A program made the translations under genes and the position numbers. Positions 4,962-23,109 of a DNA stretch of 23,808 bases are shown in pieces. The stretch covers positions 1-23,808 of IMG/VR virus record IMGVR_UViG_3300025430_000106, one strand, 5' to 3'. This DNA is from a virus. Positions within the stretch are counted from its first letter, which is position 1. Each line of letters starts with the position of its first letter. The notes beneath the pieces are model-generated. The model was not told the origin of the DNA, ran no database searches, and saw only the letters and a list, made by a program, of their open reading frames with translations.

Positions 4962-5417
4962 TTAGACAAATGTTTTGAATGACAGTGGGTTGTCGGTGAT
5001 CTTGGCAATCAATTCATGGTCGTTGATGGTCATAAAGAGCACTGGGTCTTCGCCATCTTTGGTGTCAGGTGCAGGTCGATCCCAACGGTCGCCACCCCAA
5101 CGAGGCACGCGCACAAAGTCGCCTACCTCTGCCCATGCGCCTTCAGTCCATGGCTGCATGGTGTCGCGGTTTTTGAACGCCAATGGTCCAAGCGCCACGA
5201 CCTTGCCGATCATGTTGTTCCACTTCTCGTTCTCTTTTGTCTCGTCAACGATGATGATGCGGCCAGACGTCTTTTTGATTCGACGCAGTTGCACAATCAC
5301 TCGACCGCCAAAGGGTGCTTGCCCCGGCTTGACGTCAGGAAATGCCCATGCCAGTTGATCTGGATCAGGCACGCTATCGTCCCCCTCAATCGTGGGGATC
5401 GGGTCTTTCTCACTCAT
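4962..5417 (-). CDS. GroES-like co-chaperonin
   Basis: A 151-residue protein. I chose ATG 5417 because AGGAG stands 5 bases upstream; the ATG seven codons higher is not supported. Residues about 36-141 read as a GroES (Cpn10) barrel: FGGRVIVQLRRIKKTSGRII, then IGKVVALGPLAF, WAEVGDFVRVPRWGGDRW, and the end VLFMTINDHELIAKI. In GroES the loop after the first strand binds GroEL through a hydrophobic triplet; here GRIIIVDE occupies this position. The N-terminal 35 residues are an acidic extension absent from cellular GroES. Phage-encoded co-chaperonins such as T4 gp31 adapt host GroEL to fold the capsid protein. The place between portal and scaffold genes fits that role. It lies 13 bases before the scaffold gene. 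Confidence 0.78.
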   Translation of the reverse strand: MSEKDPIPTIEGDDSVPDPDQLAWAFPDVKPGQAPFGGRVIVQLRRIKKTSGRIIIVDETKENEKWNNMIGKVVALGPLAFKNRDTMQPWTEGAWAEVGDFVRVPRWGGDRWDRPAPDTKDGEDPVLFMTINDHELIAKITDNPLSFKTFV

Positions 5418-5458
5418 ACTCACTCCTTTTGACACCATATTGCAGGTGCATCGTTAAA

Positions 5459-5820: not shown

Positions 5821-8287
5821 TTGGCGCTCCTTGGGGTTGTGCAGCAGGCGCTGCGGGTTGCGCCGCGGGTTGCGGCATTGACGGTGCGGGTTGCACCATG
5901 TTTGAAATTGCTTCGTGTGTCAGCTTGGCGTTTTCGATGGCAATCTTTGTTTGATTGTCCATCGCAGCTTTTTGTGCGTCCGCTTGCAACTTAGCTTGTT
6001 CGTACTGTTGCTTGGCTTGATCTGCCGCGGTTTTGCGTTGTGTCTCTGCCATGCTGGTGTCTTTGACGACCTGAGCATCGGGCGGCAGTTGACCTTGAGA
6101 CGCCTGTGCACGCTGCTGGGCTTGCTGGATGAGCTTTTGGAAGGCTGGAATGAACTGCTCAAACACTTCACCTGTGTCAAGCAAAACATGGCCGCCAACG
6201 GTCGTGTAGAGCTTGTCGATGGTTGCTGTGAGCGCTGGATCGTCGTAGTTGTCCACGGGCTTGCCGCGGTTGGCTTTGGCCACGTAAGTGTTTGAACGGT
6301 TCAAGTACCACAGCGTCATGTGTTGCTTGATGTGCTCGATCAAGTTGTTGAGGTAGTTCGGATCGGCAAACGGCGACTGACCCAAGAATGGGTTGAGGCC
6401 AAACTGCAAGTGATCTTGGATGTGTGCAATGTGGTCTTGCTGCATGTAGGCATAGGACGGCTGACCCAGCAACATGGCGGCGTTCTCGTCGGCACTGGTG
6501 CGCTGTTCGGGCGCAGGCGTGTCTTTCATCAACTCGTTGATGTTGGGCACCTTCATCTGCTTCAGGAAGCGTGACATGACCGCCTGCATGTTGAACTGGT
6601 CGGGGTGCTTCTCAGCCAACGCCAACACAGCTTGGTTTTGAGCCATGCGCTGGGTTTCGCTGAAGATGTGCGGGTCGGAGACTGGCACCACGTCGGTGTT
6701 GCGTGCAAAGTCTTCTCGGTTGATTTCCAAGTCGGCAACGATCTCACCCTTTTGCATTTCATCCAAGTGCCAGCGGTTCAAGCGGCAAAGGATTTTGAGC
6801 ACACGGGCTTGGGACTCATGTAAACGTGCGTGGATGGCGCTAAACACCGCGGCGCCTTGCTCAATCAGCGCTTGGGTGGTGCCCACGGGTGCGTTTTGAT
6901 TGATGTCGGCAATCTTCTCTTCGCTAGTGCTCACCACGCCCTTGGCAGCCGTGTCCAGCCAGCCAAGCAACTCGAACAGCACTGGGCTGGGCGGGTTGAA
7001 CGGCATGGGCATGGCGATCTGACGGATGTCGTTCACGCCGGGTGCGCCTTCAATCTCCACAATCTGCGTGACGTCAACTTGTTGGCTTTGACCGCTGATC
7101 TTTGCTCCCTTGAGTTTGAGCATGGTCGCCGCGTTGTTGATGTGCGCAGAATCTAAAAGAGCACGTAAAGAGCCAGTAAGAGCAGCAGATAAGCCACCGA
7201 TAAGATGAGGCAAACCAATAGCATATGCGCCCCTCCAAGGGATAAATTTGAACTCGACGATCCAGTCCAGCTTGGTCATCGTCTTGTCTTGCTCTTCCCA
7301 GTTGCGGTACAAGCCAAGGACTTCGTTGTCCAGCTCGTCCAGCATCAGGATGTAAGGTGCCATCTTGCCTTTGCTGTACTTATCCTCTTCCAGCTCAAGC
7401 CATGTGTAGATGTGGTAGACCTTGCGCACGCCATCTTCGTTGTCTTGATGGTTGCGGCCTTCAATCTTGTTGTTGGCTTGTTCAGGCTTGGTGGGATCAG
7501 GTGCTTGCGTCGAGCGGACAACGTCTACGTCTCTGTACATGCCGCTGGCAATGCGTCGGTTGAACTCCCAATGCGTAATCTCATGCACTTCCGTGGCACG
7601 CTGTGCCGTGTAGAAGTTGCTGGCCGCAAAGGGAATGATCACACGGTCAATTGGCAAAAACTCCACGCATGGACGTTTTTTCTCTTCGTCGAACCAAAGT
7701 TTGAAATATTGTGAGCCGCCCAATGGCAATTGGGTCAGCAACTGCTCTTGCTCGTCACGGAACTCTTCGATCTGCTCGGTGAGCTGCCAGTTCATAAAGT
7801 CACGCTTGCGCTCTGAGCGTTCGGACTTGATGTCGTCCATCTTGCCAAGAATTTTGGTGCGGACGGGGCCATCTGGCGGGAACATCTCTTTGATGGCGCG
7901 TGCGGCAAAGTCCACACATCCTTCAGCCATGGCGGGGTGCACCACCTTGCTGGCACCCATGAAGGTAGCACCGCCGGGGGCGTCGTTGCCCATGCCAGTA
8001 CGCTTCAGACCCTCTTCATACTTCTTGTCCCGCTCTTCACGTGCGTCTTTGTCTTTTTTGACCAAGTCGGTGTAGCGCATACCCAAAGACGACAAAGCAT
8101 AGTTGTCGTACTCTTCAGCCATGTTGGCGTAAAAGTCTGGGTTCTCTTCGGGGCCTTCTTCTGTGAAGTTAACAATTGCCGAGCCGTCGGGAAGCTCCTC
8201 GATGTCGGTGTCAATATCAGGCATCGTGACGTCAGCACTGCCGTCTTCGTTCTCGACGATGTCGGGTTGGTTCAGTTCATCCATCAT
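5810..8287 (-). CDS. portal protein
   Basis: An 825-residue protein assigned as the dodecameric portal through which DNA enters the head. Support: length, position after TerL, and segments typical of large phage portals: GGATFMGASKVVHPAMAEGCVDFAARAIKEMFPPDGPVRTK (read in two parts, about residues 104-144), MNWQLTE, WLELEE, FKFIPWRGAYAIGLPHLIGG and the helical core SEEKIADINQNAPVGTTQALIEQ. The C-terminal 150 residues are Gln/Ala-rich, coiled-coil-like and end in a Pro/Ala/Gln tail, as in portals with a long barrel or core-contacting tail. The N-terminus has two acidic repeats, NEDGSADVTMP (residues 13-23) and LPDGSAIVNF (32-41). ATG 8287 overlaps the upstream stop (ATGA); the next ATG one codon later fits the AAGG site about equally well. 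Confidence 0.88.
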   Translation of the reverse strand: MMDELNQPDIVENEDGSADVTMPDIDTDIEELPDGSAIVNFTEEGPEENPDFYANMAEEYDNYALSSLGMRYTDLVKKDKDAREERDKKYEEGLKRTGMGNDAPGGATFMGASKVVHPAMAEGCVDFAARAIKEMFPPDGPVRTKILGKMDDIKSERSERKRDFMNWQLTEQIEEFRDEQEQLLTQLPLGGSQYFKLWFDEEKKRPCVEFLPIDRVIIPFAASNFYTAQRATEVHEITHWEFNRRIASGMYRDVDVVRSTQAPDPTKPEQANNKIEGRNHQDNEDGVRKVYHIYTWLELEEDKYSKGKMAPYILMLDELDNEVLGLYRNWEEQDKTMTKLDWIVEFKFIPWRGAYAIGLPHLIGGLSAALTGSLRALLDSAHINNAATMLKLKGAKISGQSQQVDVTQIVEIEGAPGVNDIRQIAMPMPFNPPSPVLFELLGWLDTAAKGVVSTSEEKIADINQNAPVGTTQALIEQGAAVFSAIHARLHESQARVLKILCRLNRWHLDEMQKGEIVADLEINREDFARNTDVVPVSDPHIFSETQRMAQNQAVLALAEKHPDQFNMQAVMSRFLKQMKVPNINELMKDTPAPEQRTSADENAAMLLGQPSYAYMQQDHIAHIQDHLQFGLNPFLGQSPFADPNYLNNLIEHIKQHMTLWYLNRSNTYVAKANRGKPVDNYDDPALTATIDKLYTTVGGHVLLDTGEVFEQFIPAFQKLIQQAQQRAQASQGQLPPDAQVVKDTSMAETQRKTAADQAKQQYEQAKLQADAQKAAMDNQTKIAIENAKLTHEAISNMVQPAPSMPQPAAQPAAPAAQPQGAPNGI

Positions 8288-21141: not shown

Positions 21142-21347
21142 TTGCGTGCCTCCAGCATTGCGTCTGCAAAGTCATAAGCCGAATCAGCAATCAGTTTGTG
21201 TTTATCTATGGCATATTTATGAAGAAGTGCTTGCATTGCCTTGGCAGCAAAGTAATCACGCAAGGTCATGCCAGTAATATGCATACCAAGCGTTTGTGTT
21301 CCATGTTGATGTAATGGGAATGCTGGCCCACCTGTTTCTTTTTTCAT
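21138..21347 (-). CDS. GGPAFP...GMTLRDYFA phage protein (69 aa)
   Basis: Of three ATG codons I chose 21347 (MKKETGGPAFPLHQHGTQTL), giving AGGAG a 6-base spacing; ATG 21374 would lie almost at the expected transcript start. The protein has the well-known small-phage-protein layout: GGPAFP, then GMHITGMTLRDYFAAKAMQA and a C-terminal AYDFADAMLEARK. I know this family only as hypothetical. It is the first gene after the promoter-like motif at 21379-21407 and starts the long chain of overlapping small genes. Confidence 0.83.
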   Translation of the reverse strand: MKKETGGPAFPLHQHGTQTLGMHITGMTLRDYFAAKAMQALLHKYAIDKHKLIADSAYDFADAMLEARK

Positions 21348-21378
21348 CATGCTCTCCTGTTGATCCCACGACATTGTG

Positions 21379-21407
21379 GTGGAGAAACTATAACATGAAA
21401 TTTAAGG
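21379..21407 (-). promoter_or_regulatory. promoter-like motif, copy 1 (extended -10)
   Basis: On the minus strand this 29-base segment contains TGTTATAGT, an extended -10 element (TG-x-TATAGT, box at 21387-21392), but no recognisable -35. It matches the segment at 18340-18368 in 21 of 29 positions. It lies 32 bases upstream of the first start of the small-gene train and downstream of the structured RNA region, just where a promoter is needed. Confidence 0.62.
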
Positions 21408-21482
21408 AAGGGGAGTTTGCGCAAAAATTTTTTTGCAGGGGTTTTTGGCGCTGGACGAGGCTTTCCCCCTCTCCCTTGATTT

Positions 21483-21537
21483 CACCCAAAGACCCCCCCT
21501 ACCCCACGAGGATGGGGGTAAGGGAGGAGGTTGGGTG
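21483..21537 (-). other. long G/C rod hairpin in the RNA region
   Basis: A 7-bp outer stem (CACCCAA/TTGGGTG; 21531-21537 with 21483-21489), a symmetrical 3x3 internal loop, and a 13-bp inner stem (21515-21527 with 21493-21505) closed by a 9-base loop. Two inner pairs are G-U on the minus strand and A-C on the plus strand. No T-run follows, so it is not a simple terminator. It probably forms the 3' domain of the structured RNA. Confidence 0.72.
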
Positions 21538-21635
21538 CTTCACCGCTCAGTGAGCATCATCATGGCAACTTGCGTTGACCCCCCGGCGTGATGATTCGAC
21601 CAGCCGCACGGATTGTTCGGGAACTGCCCCCTAGC

Positions 21636-21762
21636 CCATGTGATTGATGATGGTGGCTGGCTTCGAACCCAGCGCGTACCCCTGCCGGAGCTGCTCTTCC
21701 CACCGATGCCTCGGCCCACCTTGTGGTGGATTTTCTGAGCTACACCATCATCAATCACACGG
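21636..21762 (-). ncRNA. tRNA-like domain with an extended acceptor helix
   Basis: On the minus strand GATGGTG-TA-GCTC opens the domain like a tRNA (7-bp acceptor, U8-A9, D-stem), GAGC closes the D-stem, and GCTGG-GTTCGAAG-CCAGC followed directly by CACCATC gives a T-arm and 3' acceptor strand. Differences from a tRNA: the acceptor helix is about 20 bp instead of 7 (last pairs G-C, G-C and one wobble), the D-loop carries two extra hairpins (CCACC-ACAA-GGTGG and CCGA-GGCA-TCGG), the T-loop is one base long, and only 18 bases remain for the anticodon arm. No 3' CCA is encoded. It therefore cannot be an ordinary tRNA. A tRNA-derived or tRNA-mimicking domain inside a larger RNA fits best. Confidence 0.6.
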
Positions 21763-21847
21763 TTGCATACCGTGTACGCTTTCCTTCCGCGCCACCACGA
21801 CTGGGGTGCTTGCTATCGTGCGGAGTACGGGTAAGGCAGAAAGCAAA

Positions 21848-21945
21848 AAACCCATTGGTGAACGAGCTTTAGGCTTGGTTGCCGCATAAGAGCCTGCACA
21901 GACAGGACATCCTAGCTTTGACGAAGCCCGCTCACCAATGGGTTT
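21848..21945 (-). repeat. 21-bp inverted repeat forming a long helix
   Basis: The arms 21848-21868 and 21925-21945 are complementary over 21 positions. The two imperfect positions (21862/21931 and 21865/21928) are G-U pairs in minus-strand RNA. The 56-base loop can form CCTG-TCTGTG-CAGG and GGCT/AGCC hairpins, so the element looks like a closed multi-branch domain. The 3' arm is followed by six T on the minus strand, so this helix could also act as a terminator or attenuator for transcripts from the upstream promoter. Confidence 0.78.
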
Positions 21946-21996
21946 GCGAGTGCGTTTCTGTGAACTACAACGGGTTACCAAGCCGTTGATGATCGG

Positions 21997-22027
21997 ATTA
22001 TACAGTCGTTGTTTCACCTCGTGTCAA
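21997..22027 (-). promoter_or_regulatory. sigma70-type promoter, TTGACA-19-TATAAT
   Basis: On the minus strand a perfect TTGACA (22022-22027) and a perfect TATAAT (21997-22002) are separated by 19 bases, two more than optimal. The promoter lies inside the last codons of the primase gene; the TAA of the -10 box is the primase stop codon. Transcription would start near 21990, just before the first hairpin of the RNA region. It is the only place in the window where I noticed both consensus hexamers. Confidence 0.75.
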
Positions 22028-22915
22028 TACATACCGCCGCAAATCCATAATTTTTTTTGCAACAGCGAACAAACCGTGTTTTTTATGCAAATCGTTGGCG
22101 TCCCAACCGACCTCGTCCGCCATCGTCCAAGGCAGGCCAGTTTGAATCGCTGATCGTTCACCCATCATGCCCACCTCTGCGCCAGTCTCAGGGTGCTTTT
22201 TGTTTGGGTCATTGTCGGCAAAGACGTAGCGCTGGCCTTTGATCTGATCCGCCACCTGAATCAAGTTCGATGCTGAGAAGCACACCACCACAGACGCGAT
22301 AGAACCCGTGCTGCGCAGCGCATCTCGCACAGATAGACCTGTGGCGTACCCTTCAGTCAACCAAATCTCTGAGGCGTCTCTGGCGCCCATGTACAGCACG
22401 GCGTTCTTGGCTCTCATGCCGGGCAGCATCTTCTTTTCGTACTTCATGTTCGGGGCGTCCCAATAGATCGACTGGTAGCCTTGAATCTTGTTGGTCACCA
22501 CGTTGCGCATGGGGATCAACAGCTTGTTGTCTAAAACCAACATTTTCTCGTCAGGGAAGCCTTTGATCTGAAGGTAGGGGTGCGTGCTGGGCTTGGCGTT
22601 GCGCAAGGTGATCATTGCGCGTTCGGCCGCCAGCTCATACGACAGATCTTTGTCGGCGTTGGCTGTCTGGCGCTTGAGTGCCCAATCACGCTTTTCTTGG
22701 TCTGTCCAAGGCTTGGCGTGGGGGTCTTCGTACCACATCGCCCGAGCGTCACCGCTCCAGTCCATCACCCAACCGCGCTGGCCATCCCAAAAGAATGCGC
22801 CATTGGTTGATCGGGGCTTGTCCACCGTGCCAGTGCGACGAATCTTGTCCGAGGCGTAGAACTTGGCGGGATCAATGTCGATGCCATGGGCGCGTGCAAA
22901 AGCAATGAAACTCAT
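21998..22915 (-). CDS. Toprim DNA primase
   Basis: I chose ATG 22915 (MSFIAFARAHGIDIDPAKFY), which overlaps the upstream stop (ATGA); the frame is open fourteen codons further but inside that gene. The 305-residue protein has an N-terminal part with GAFFWDGQRGWVMDWSGDAR, a middle with HPYLQIKGFPDEKMLVLDNK leading to LLIPMRN and IQGYQSIYWD, and a Toprim domain: WLTEGYATGLSVRDALR with the catalytic Glu at about 188, YVFADNDPNKK with the Asp pair at about 234/236, and the end WDANDLHKKHG. This matches phage primases that lack a zinc finger in the same chain. It makes RNA primers for lagging-strand synthesis. The helicase partner lies upstream. Confidence 0.9.
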   Translation of the reverse strand: MSFIAFARAHGIDIDPAKFYASDKIRRTGTVDKPRSTNGAFFWDGQRGWVMDWSGDARAMWYEDPHAKPWTDQEKRDWALKRQTANADKDLSYELAAERAMITLRNAKPSTHPYLQIKGFPDEKMLVLDNKLLIPMRNVVTNKIQGYQSIYWDAPNMKYEKKMLPGMRAKNAVLYMGARDASEIWLTEGYATGLSVRDALRSTGSIASVVVCFSASNLIQVADQIKGQRYVFADNDPNKKHPETGAEVGMMGERSAIQTGLPWTMADEVGWDANDLHKKHGLFAVAKKIMDLRRYVLTRGETTTV

Positions 22916-23109
22916 TTTGCACTCACTGGGTAAAAGGTCACTACATCGGATTTCCAATGAATAGTGGCTTTGCAGCCCAACTTCTTGGCTGTGCTCTCAA
23001 TCCAGTGCTTGATCGCAGGCTCGTATATTAATTTTTCAAGCAAAGCCAAACTGATGGTCGCCTCTTTGCCGCTATTCACCTTCTCGGCAATCCATGCTTC
23101 ATAGTTCAT
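22912..23109 (-). CDS. hypothetical small protein (65 aa)
   Basis: ATG 23109 has AGGGG 6 bases upstream and overlaps the previous stop (ATGA). The protein starts MNYEAWIAEKVNSGKEATIS, then LALLEKLIYEPAIKHWIEST and AKKLGCKATIHWKSDVVTFY PVSAK. It looks like two helices followed by a beta hairpin. No family recognised. Being between helicase and primase suggests a replication accessory protein, but this is position only. Confidence 0.77.
   Translation of the reverse strand: MNYEAWIAEKVNSGKEATISLALLEKLIYEPAIKHWIESTAKKLGCKATIHWKSDVVTFYPVSAK

Follow-up and report, generated by a model that had tools for sequence, protein, structure and literature searches.

The window analyzed here, a 23,808-nucleotide stretch of viral DNA (IMG/VR record IMGVR_UViG_3300025430_000106), raises the question of what lies between a primase-like gene (21998-22957; phrog_2249, E 1.9e-28) and a group of small genes, with terminase, portal, and head genes further downstream on the same strand. 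A preliminary description of the locus had suggested a large structured RNA on the minus strand, with its start near 21990, in a stretch without a supported gene. Both proposals were borne out: positions 21990 to 21480 (minus strand) form a structured RNA gene of about 510 bases, whose helices are kept by compensating changes in relatives. The longest open reading frame (ORF) in the stretch has 90 codons, compared with 113 in shuffled sequences, and in the relatives that share its type of body (class A) the values are 68 and 65. We also looked across the relatives for an open frame conserved among homologs, and found none that was shared or longer than expected by chance. With ORF lengths within chance, the coding reading of this stretch was rejected; the window RNA has no protein product. 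One or more unrecognized small protein genes are thus an extremely improbable explanation: hypothetical proteins in GenBank do span the related RNAs of phages MW202753.1 and MW202545.1, but against this stand the frame data and strong base-pair covariation. The hypothetical proteins UOF78434.1 and UOF81610.1 overlie RNA header and body (L210, 2972-3199; MW202753.1, 32238-32669), and are probably RNA misannotated as protein.

Related RNAs occur in more than 100 other phage sequences. The window primase, used as a query, identified 25 related viral loci, and BLASTN of the RNA region against these loci revealed conservation in blocks with sharp breaks. Exact-pattern scans of viral contigs matched the start of the RNA core in at least 119 stretches and the second half of the core in 68, some of the latter being unrelated coding sequence. 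Removal of near-duplicates left 111 loci with upstream sequence among the matches listed. Grouping of the bodies that have the core hairpin gave classes of 70, 30, 8, 7, 4, and 4 loci plus singletons (among the matches listed), and inspection by eye points to structured conservation in classes B and C as well. When annotated phages were searched by BLASTN with the region, MW202753.1 was the sole genuine relative, and a weak one, the rest being chance matches; with the related locus L026 as the query, MW202545.1 was also found. The plasmids searched for a related RNA gave no match. A pattern scan of genome contigs returned eight matches, of which the class A covariance model described below (R1) scores only L204 and L208, and 4 of 301 bacterial genomes related to a Burkholderiales metagenome-assembled genome (MAG) match, including that MAG and one 3.8-Mb contig. 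The matched bacterial regions look like prophage, and the weakest of these matches, G204, is doubtful.

The minus strand of the RNA region folds better than dinucleotide shuffles (z = -5.6, versus -3.3 for the plus strand). The long helices claimed in the preliminary description are present at 21848-21869/21924-21945 (22 nt, 91% complementary) and 21636-21655/21743-21762 (20 nt, 95%). The second of these belongs to the 3′ portion, or body, which has the following elements.

21480-21831, minus strand: class A body, with roughly 223 conserved positions and, in one arm, a 129-nt insert (model R1, covariation).
21786-21829, minus strand: core pseudoknot, formed by GCGGA (21786-21790) and the loop UCCGC (21820-21824) of hairpin CGU-ACUCCGC-ACG, with a small hairpin enclosed (covariation).
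21607-21774, minus strand: helix CACGG (21770-21774)/CCGUG (21607-21611), closing the variable-arm domain (covariation).
21636-21762, minus strand: variable arm, a 20-bp helix (21636-21655 with 21743-21762) capped by a cloverleaf-like insert (fold z = -6.3).
21556-21606, minus strand: second pseudoknot, formed by GAUGAU (21556-21561) and the loop AUCAUC (21590-21595) of a CGGC/GCCG hairpin that starts from 21606 (covariation).
21480-21538, minus strand: 3′ G-rich hairpin ending UCUUUGGGUGAAA (window fold z = -2.5).

Model R1 was built from 32 diverse relatives with the window left out, and it nevertheless recovers the window with 185.8 bits (E 2e-58). On the class A alignment (32 diverse members, 248 columns), RNAalifold predicted 55 pairs, 18 of them with two-sided changes. 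A hand-written structure of 56 base pairs, including the two pseudoknots, is paired in 95.8% of cells, compared with 35 to 49% in shifted controls. Two-sided changes that keep the pair occur at 24 of its 56 pairs (154 cells), whereas shifted structures reach at most 8 pairs and 16 cells and shuffles average 13.7 pairs and 36.5 cells; because the structure was read from the same sequences, the shifted control is somewhat favorable to it, but the two-sided count is far beyond such bias. In the core pseudoknot, which is common to all body classes defined by the core hairpin, the enclosed hairpin covaries at three of four pairs and the loop pairing changes from G-C to A-U in five relatives. The CACGG/CCGUG helix is paired in 100% of cells, with two-sided changes at four of its five pairs, and both helices of the second pseudoknot are likewise paired in 100% of cells, with three covarying pairs each. 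Most class A members have a short stem-tetraloop in place of the variable arm, and elsewhere other inserts take its position.

The preliminary description had argued for selection on a minus-strand RNA from five named imperfect pairs. All five are indeed A/C on the plus strand and G-U in minus-strand RNA, which taken alone is weak evidence of strand (1 in 32). The relatives carry the same argument much further: the alignment contains 142 G-U cells versus 13 A-C cells, or 40 versus 7 if the G-rich 3′ hairpin is left out, and this excess fixes the RNA strand as minus. In that hairpin the G-run is invariant, while the facing strand drifts between C and U and so pairs only as RNA of the minus strand. 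Judged by covariation, the body folds as listed above, and does so as minus-strand RNA.

The invariant class A 3′ end, GGGG-A-GGGGG, also bears on whether the transcript serves replication, as a primer or origin transcript like ColE1 RNA II whose G-rich 3′ end forms an RNA-DNA hybrid. Primase, helicase, and recombination genes adjoin the RNA in many phages, which speaks for such a role; body classes B and C, however, lack the G-run, and the strand facing this run is kept as a pairing partner. We regard a replication-linked transcript as very improbable.

Upstream of the body lie a promoter and a 5′ module, the header, made up of the following elements.

22022-22027, minus strand: -35 hexamer TTGACA, read from the sequence and overlapping the 3′ end of the primase gene.
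21997-22002, minus strand: -10 hexamer TATAAT, read from the sequence, 19 nt from the -35 hexamer, with a predicted RNA start near 21990.
21968-21988, minus strand: header hairpin P1 (CAACGG/CCGUUG) with loop CUUGGUAAC, a predicted fold found at the same position in all three header types.
21977-21984, minus strand: header pseudoknot strand A, GGCUUGGU (P1 loop plus last stem bases), complementary to 21872-21879.
21872-21879, minus strand: header pseudoknot strand A′, ACCAAGCC, inside P2 and pairing with strand A.
21848-21945, minus strand: long hairpin P2, a 22-bp inverted repeat (arms 21924-21945 and 21848-21869) with two G-U pairs.
21845-21850, minus strand: terminator-like U-run right after P2, read from the sequence.

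The consensus promoter noted earlier at one end of the stretch is perfect in both hexamers and is conserved at the predicted start in relatives; a promoter scan restricted to spacers of 16 to 18 nt reports none because the window spacer is 19 nt. In 72 of the 111 relatives among the matches listed, the core is preceded by TTGACA and a -10 hexamer at a spacing of 16 to 19 nt, mostly 18 to 19 nt, and in most relatives with this promoter it lies 120 to 175 nt upstream of the core. The spacers of many relatives (e.g., L075, L144, L187, L189, and L037) hold inverted repeats of differing sequence between the -35 and -10 hexamers, such as ACACGTC-ATGA-GACGTGT and GGGGG-CCCCC. Stems of at least 5 occur in 19 of 70 spacers, and the mean stem of 3.76 is a small excess over the 3.22 in shuffles.

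P2 is found in every header type, and 95 of the 111 relatives among the matches listed have a T run of at least four in the 60 nt before the core; some others (as seen in L040 and L088) have an extra hairpin between U-run and core. Pairing between strands A and A′ is kept with 19 different sequences in type I headers and 22 in type II, and none of 300 permutations did as well, so that in these two types covariation demonstrates the predicted loop pairing. In the type III header, which is the window's own, the two strands are nearly invariant and pairing is weaker in some members; support for the pairing there therefore comes by analogy with types I and II. Identity is lower in the header loop (0.54/0.49) than in the stem (0.73/0.67), which is suggestive of loop hypervariability at the sequence level. 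One prophage copy, L213, is without a header.

Comparison of related phages indicates that header, body, and arm are exchanged among them. The body of L010 is 98.9% identical to that of the window, but its header is different and the match begins at the core; L007 keeps the header-distal parts, with the arm replaced; and a different body (class F) is present in L004 and L008, which share 95% and 88% primase identity with the window. In L011, L013, L210, and L227, the body slot is occupied by the Betaproteobacteria-1 RNA (Rfam RF02932), joined to the same header types, which stand before several bodies unrelated to one another. Among 13 contigs with an exact header pattern, a structured-looking body always comes next. 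In L040 and L154, the in-body arm domain of the window's relatives (GATGGTG...CACCATC) is located between U-run and core on a different helix, and the arm itself is therefore a movable module.

The Rfam checks proposed in the preliminary description, which had named GOLLD as a size comparison only, revealed no membership. The window gave no match at the gathering score; a scan of 21300-22100 at E values up to 10 gave chance matches only, the GOLLD, ROOL, HEARO, and tRNA models remaining unmatched; and none of the scanned class A, B, C, and D bodies matched Rfam. For HEARO, the IscB guide RNA, there was also no nuclease among the window genes tested. The window RNA is absent from Rfam, and its family may already be listed, undescribed, among candidate phage RNAs in published or unpublished lists. 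RF02932, which reportedly stems from Weinberg's 2017 work, shares the slot and header types, but its body differs from class A: its model does not match the window, although it does match L011, L013, and L210, and R1 in turn does not match the RF02932 loci. The lambda pR′-6S RNA-tR′ unit, in which a strong promoter, a short RNA, and a terminator-like hairpin precede the late genes, resembles the window header in those three elements; its position before late genes is not general among relatives of the window RNA, and we know of no header pseudoknot or large conserved body in the lambda unit.

GOLLD and ROOL are described as cage-forming RNAs of phages and prophages that occur near tRNA islands and whose function is unknown (PMC12286853), and in GOLLD a tRNA is sometimes located in the variable region (Kretsch et al. 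2025, PMC12286853). The window RNA resembles GOLLD as a large phage and prophage RNA with multiple pseudoknots, unknown function, and frequent proximity to tRNA islands, found in lake phages; it differs in length (about 510 nt, versus more than 800 for many GOLLD RNAs) and in having a promoter-linked header pseudoknot and exchangeable bodies. With ROOL it shares phage and prophage occurrence, tRNA islands, multiple pseudoknots, and the lack of a known protein partner, but it differs in helices and host group. Because the GOLLD and ROOL covariance models fail on the window, we do not file the RNA as a member of either family.

All 13 tRNA genes in 109 relatives (957 kb) are on the strand of the RNA and no more than 700 nt away from it, where a share of 15% is expected and random placement reaches 13 of 13 once in 10,000; these genes come from only six loci. 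In phage ctpbd312 (MW202545.1), six tRNA genes directly precede the header, while ARAGORN found none in the window. Closeness to tRNA genes is thus seen in the relatives and not in the window, and since it is common to GOLLD and ROOL it is not diagnostic. The variable arm of the window was considered as a tRNA or tmRNA and rejected: ARAGORN and the Rfam tRNA model were negative, and the likeness (GUAGCUCAG, GGUUCGAAGCC) is by eye only. A tRNA decoy, whose cloverleaf arm binds tRNA-handling factors or the ribosome, would account for this tRNA-like sequence, for a similar cloverleaf in L153 and its relatives, and for the adjoining tRNA genes. We consider it very improbable, as most class A members lack the arm, there is no 3′ CCA end, and neither tRNA search recognizes the arm.

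Our overall reading, which we hold to be moderately probable, is that of a non-coding phage RNA of about 510 nt with two modules, for which we favor a role as a trans-acting RNA or RNA particle. Its own sigma-70-type promoter would drive a minus-strand RNA starting near 21990, with the conserved body ending at 21480. The 5′ header comprises P1 and P2, with the P1 loop predicted to pair inside P2 and P2 ending in the U-run, and the body folds compactly, with two or more pseudoknots and an arm that can be replaced. P2 and the U-run may act as a partial terminator, in which case a short RNA consisting of the header would be made alongside a longer one produced by read-through. The longer product, as suspected for GOLLD and ROOL, would then function in trans, either as a stable RNA or in the form of an RNA particle, and could self-associate through the header loop. 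Particle formation by the window RNA is proposed by analogy only.

The main rival to action in trans is a cis-acting leader, in which P1 and P2 form a conditional terminator and the body is an antiterminator or riboregulator of the downstream operon. We take this possibility seriously because some bodies run directly into a gene, a class A body being followed in some cases by a ribosome site and start codon about 30 to 60 nt downstream. P2 with its U-run looks like an intrinsic terminator and occurs in nearly all relatives, neighboring genes are those of replication and recombination (functions assigned by eye except for the window primase), and in L217, from a genome of a Burkholderiales family, the body lies just before a terminase-like gene. 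Terminator-like sites follow the body in 8 of 58 relatives, compared with 2 of 116 controls, which favors our overall reading; the other side of this count, 50 of 58 class A members without a recognizable terminator in a search that was blind to P2 because it allowed hairpins of only 36 nt, weighs against action in trans, as does the header-less prophage copy. A leader, on the other hand, fits poorly with downstream genes that are not conserved: we sought a universal protein partner, and no family occurs in more than 30 of the 111 loci among the matches listed, the best, at 30, being mostly upstream on the other strand. Moreover, a separate promoter-like -10 sequence, GTGTTATAGT, precedes the next gene in the window's relatives, and the U-run lies before the large body rather than after it. 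On this evidence we consider a leader possible but rather unlikely.

Returning to a trans-acting RNA, we tentatively suggest a shared modular platform, in which a hypervariable, self-complementary header loop would let each RNA recognize its own kind, for self-assembly or autoregulation in trans, and would be joined to exchangeable bodies, one of them known to Rfam. To our knowledge, large ornate RNAs are few and mostly without known function. To these the present family contributes a group that is widespread among freshwater and betaproteobacterial phages and far exceeds in size the one body in Rfam, and copies in bacterial chromosomes make the RNA testable there. Near-identical phages that have exchanged header, body, or arm offer a natural experiment in RNA modularity, and the association with tRNA genes, which GOLLD and ROOL also have, points to a shared role open to comparison among unrelated RNAs. 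None of the header and body construction, the pseudoknots, the breadth of the family, or the tRNA neighborhood had figured in the preliminary description.

Several further features were observed near the RNA or in the window. In L013 (920-1200) and L026 (190-460), primase and header are separated by a further stretch that looks structured, CGCATGGGGATTGGGG...CAGTCCCCAGCCGTGTTGGTGG, and in L009 a protein gene (5900-6510), HNH-endonuclease-like by eye, occupies that interval. A second promoter-hairpin-terminator unit is present about 200 nt upstream of RF02932 in L016 (1640-1810), L017, L020, and L023. Among the head genes of the window, positions 4962 to 5438 (minus strand) encode a GroES-like co-chaperonin (phrog_3188, E 6.4e-07).
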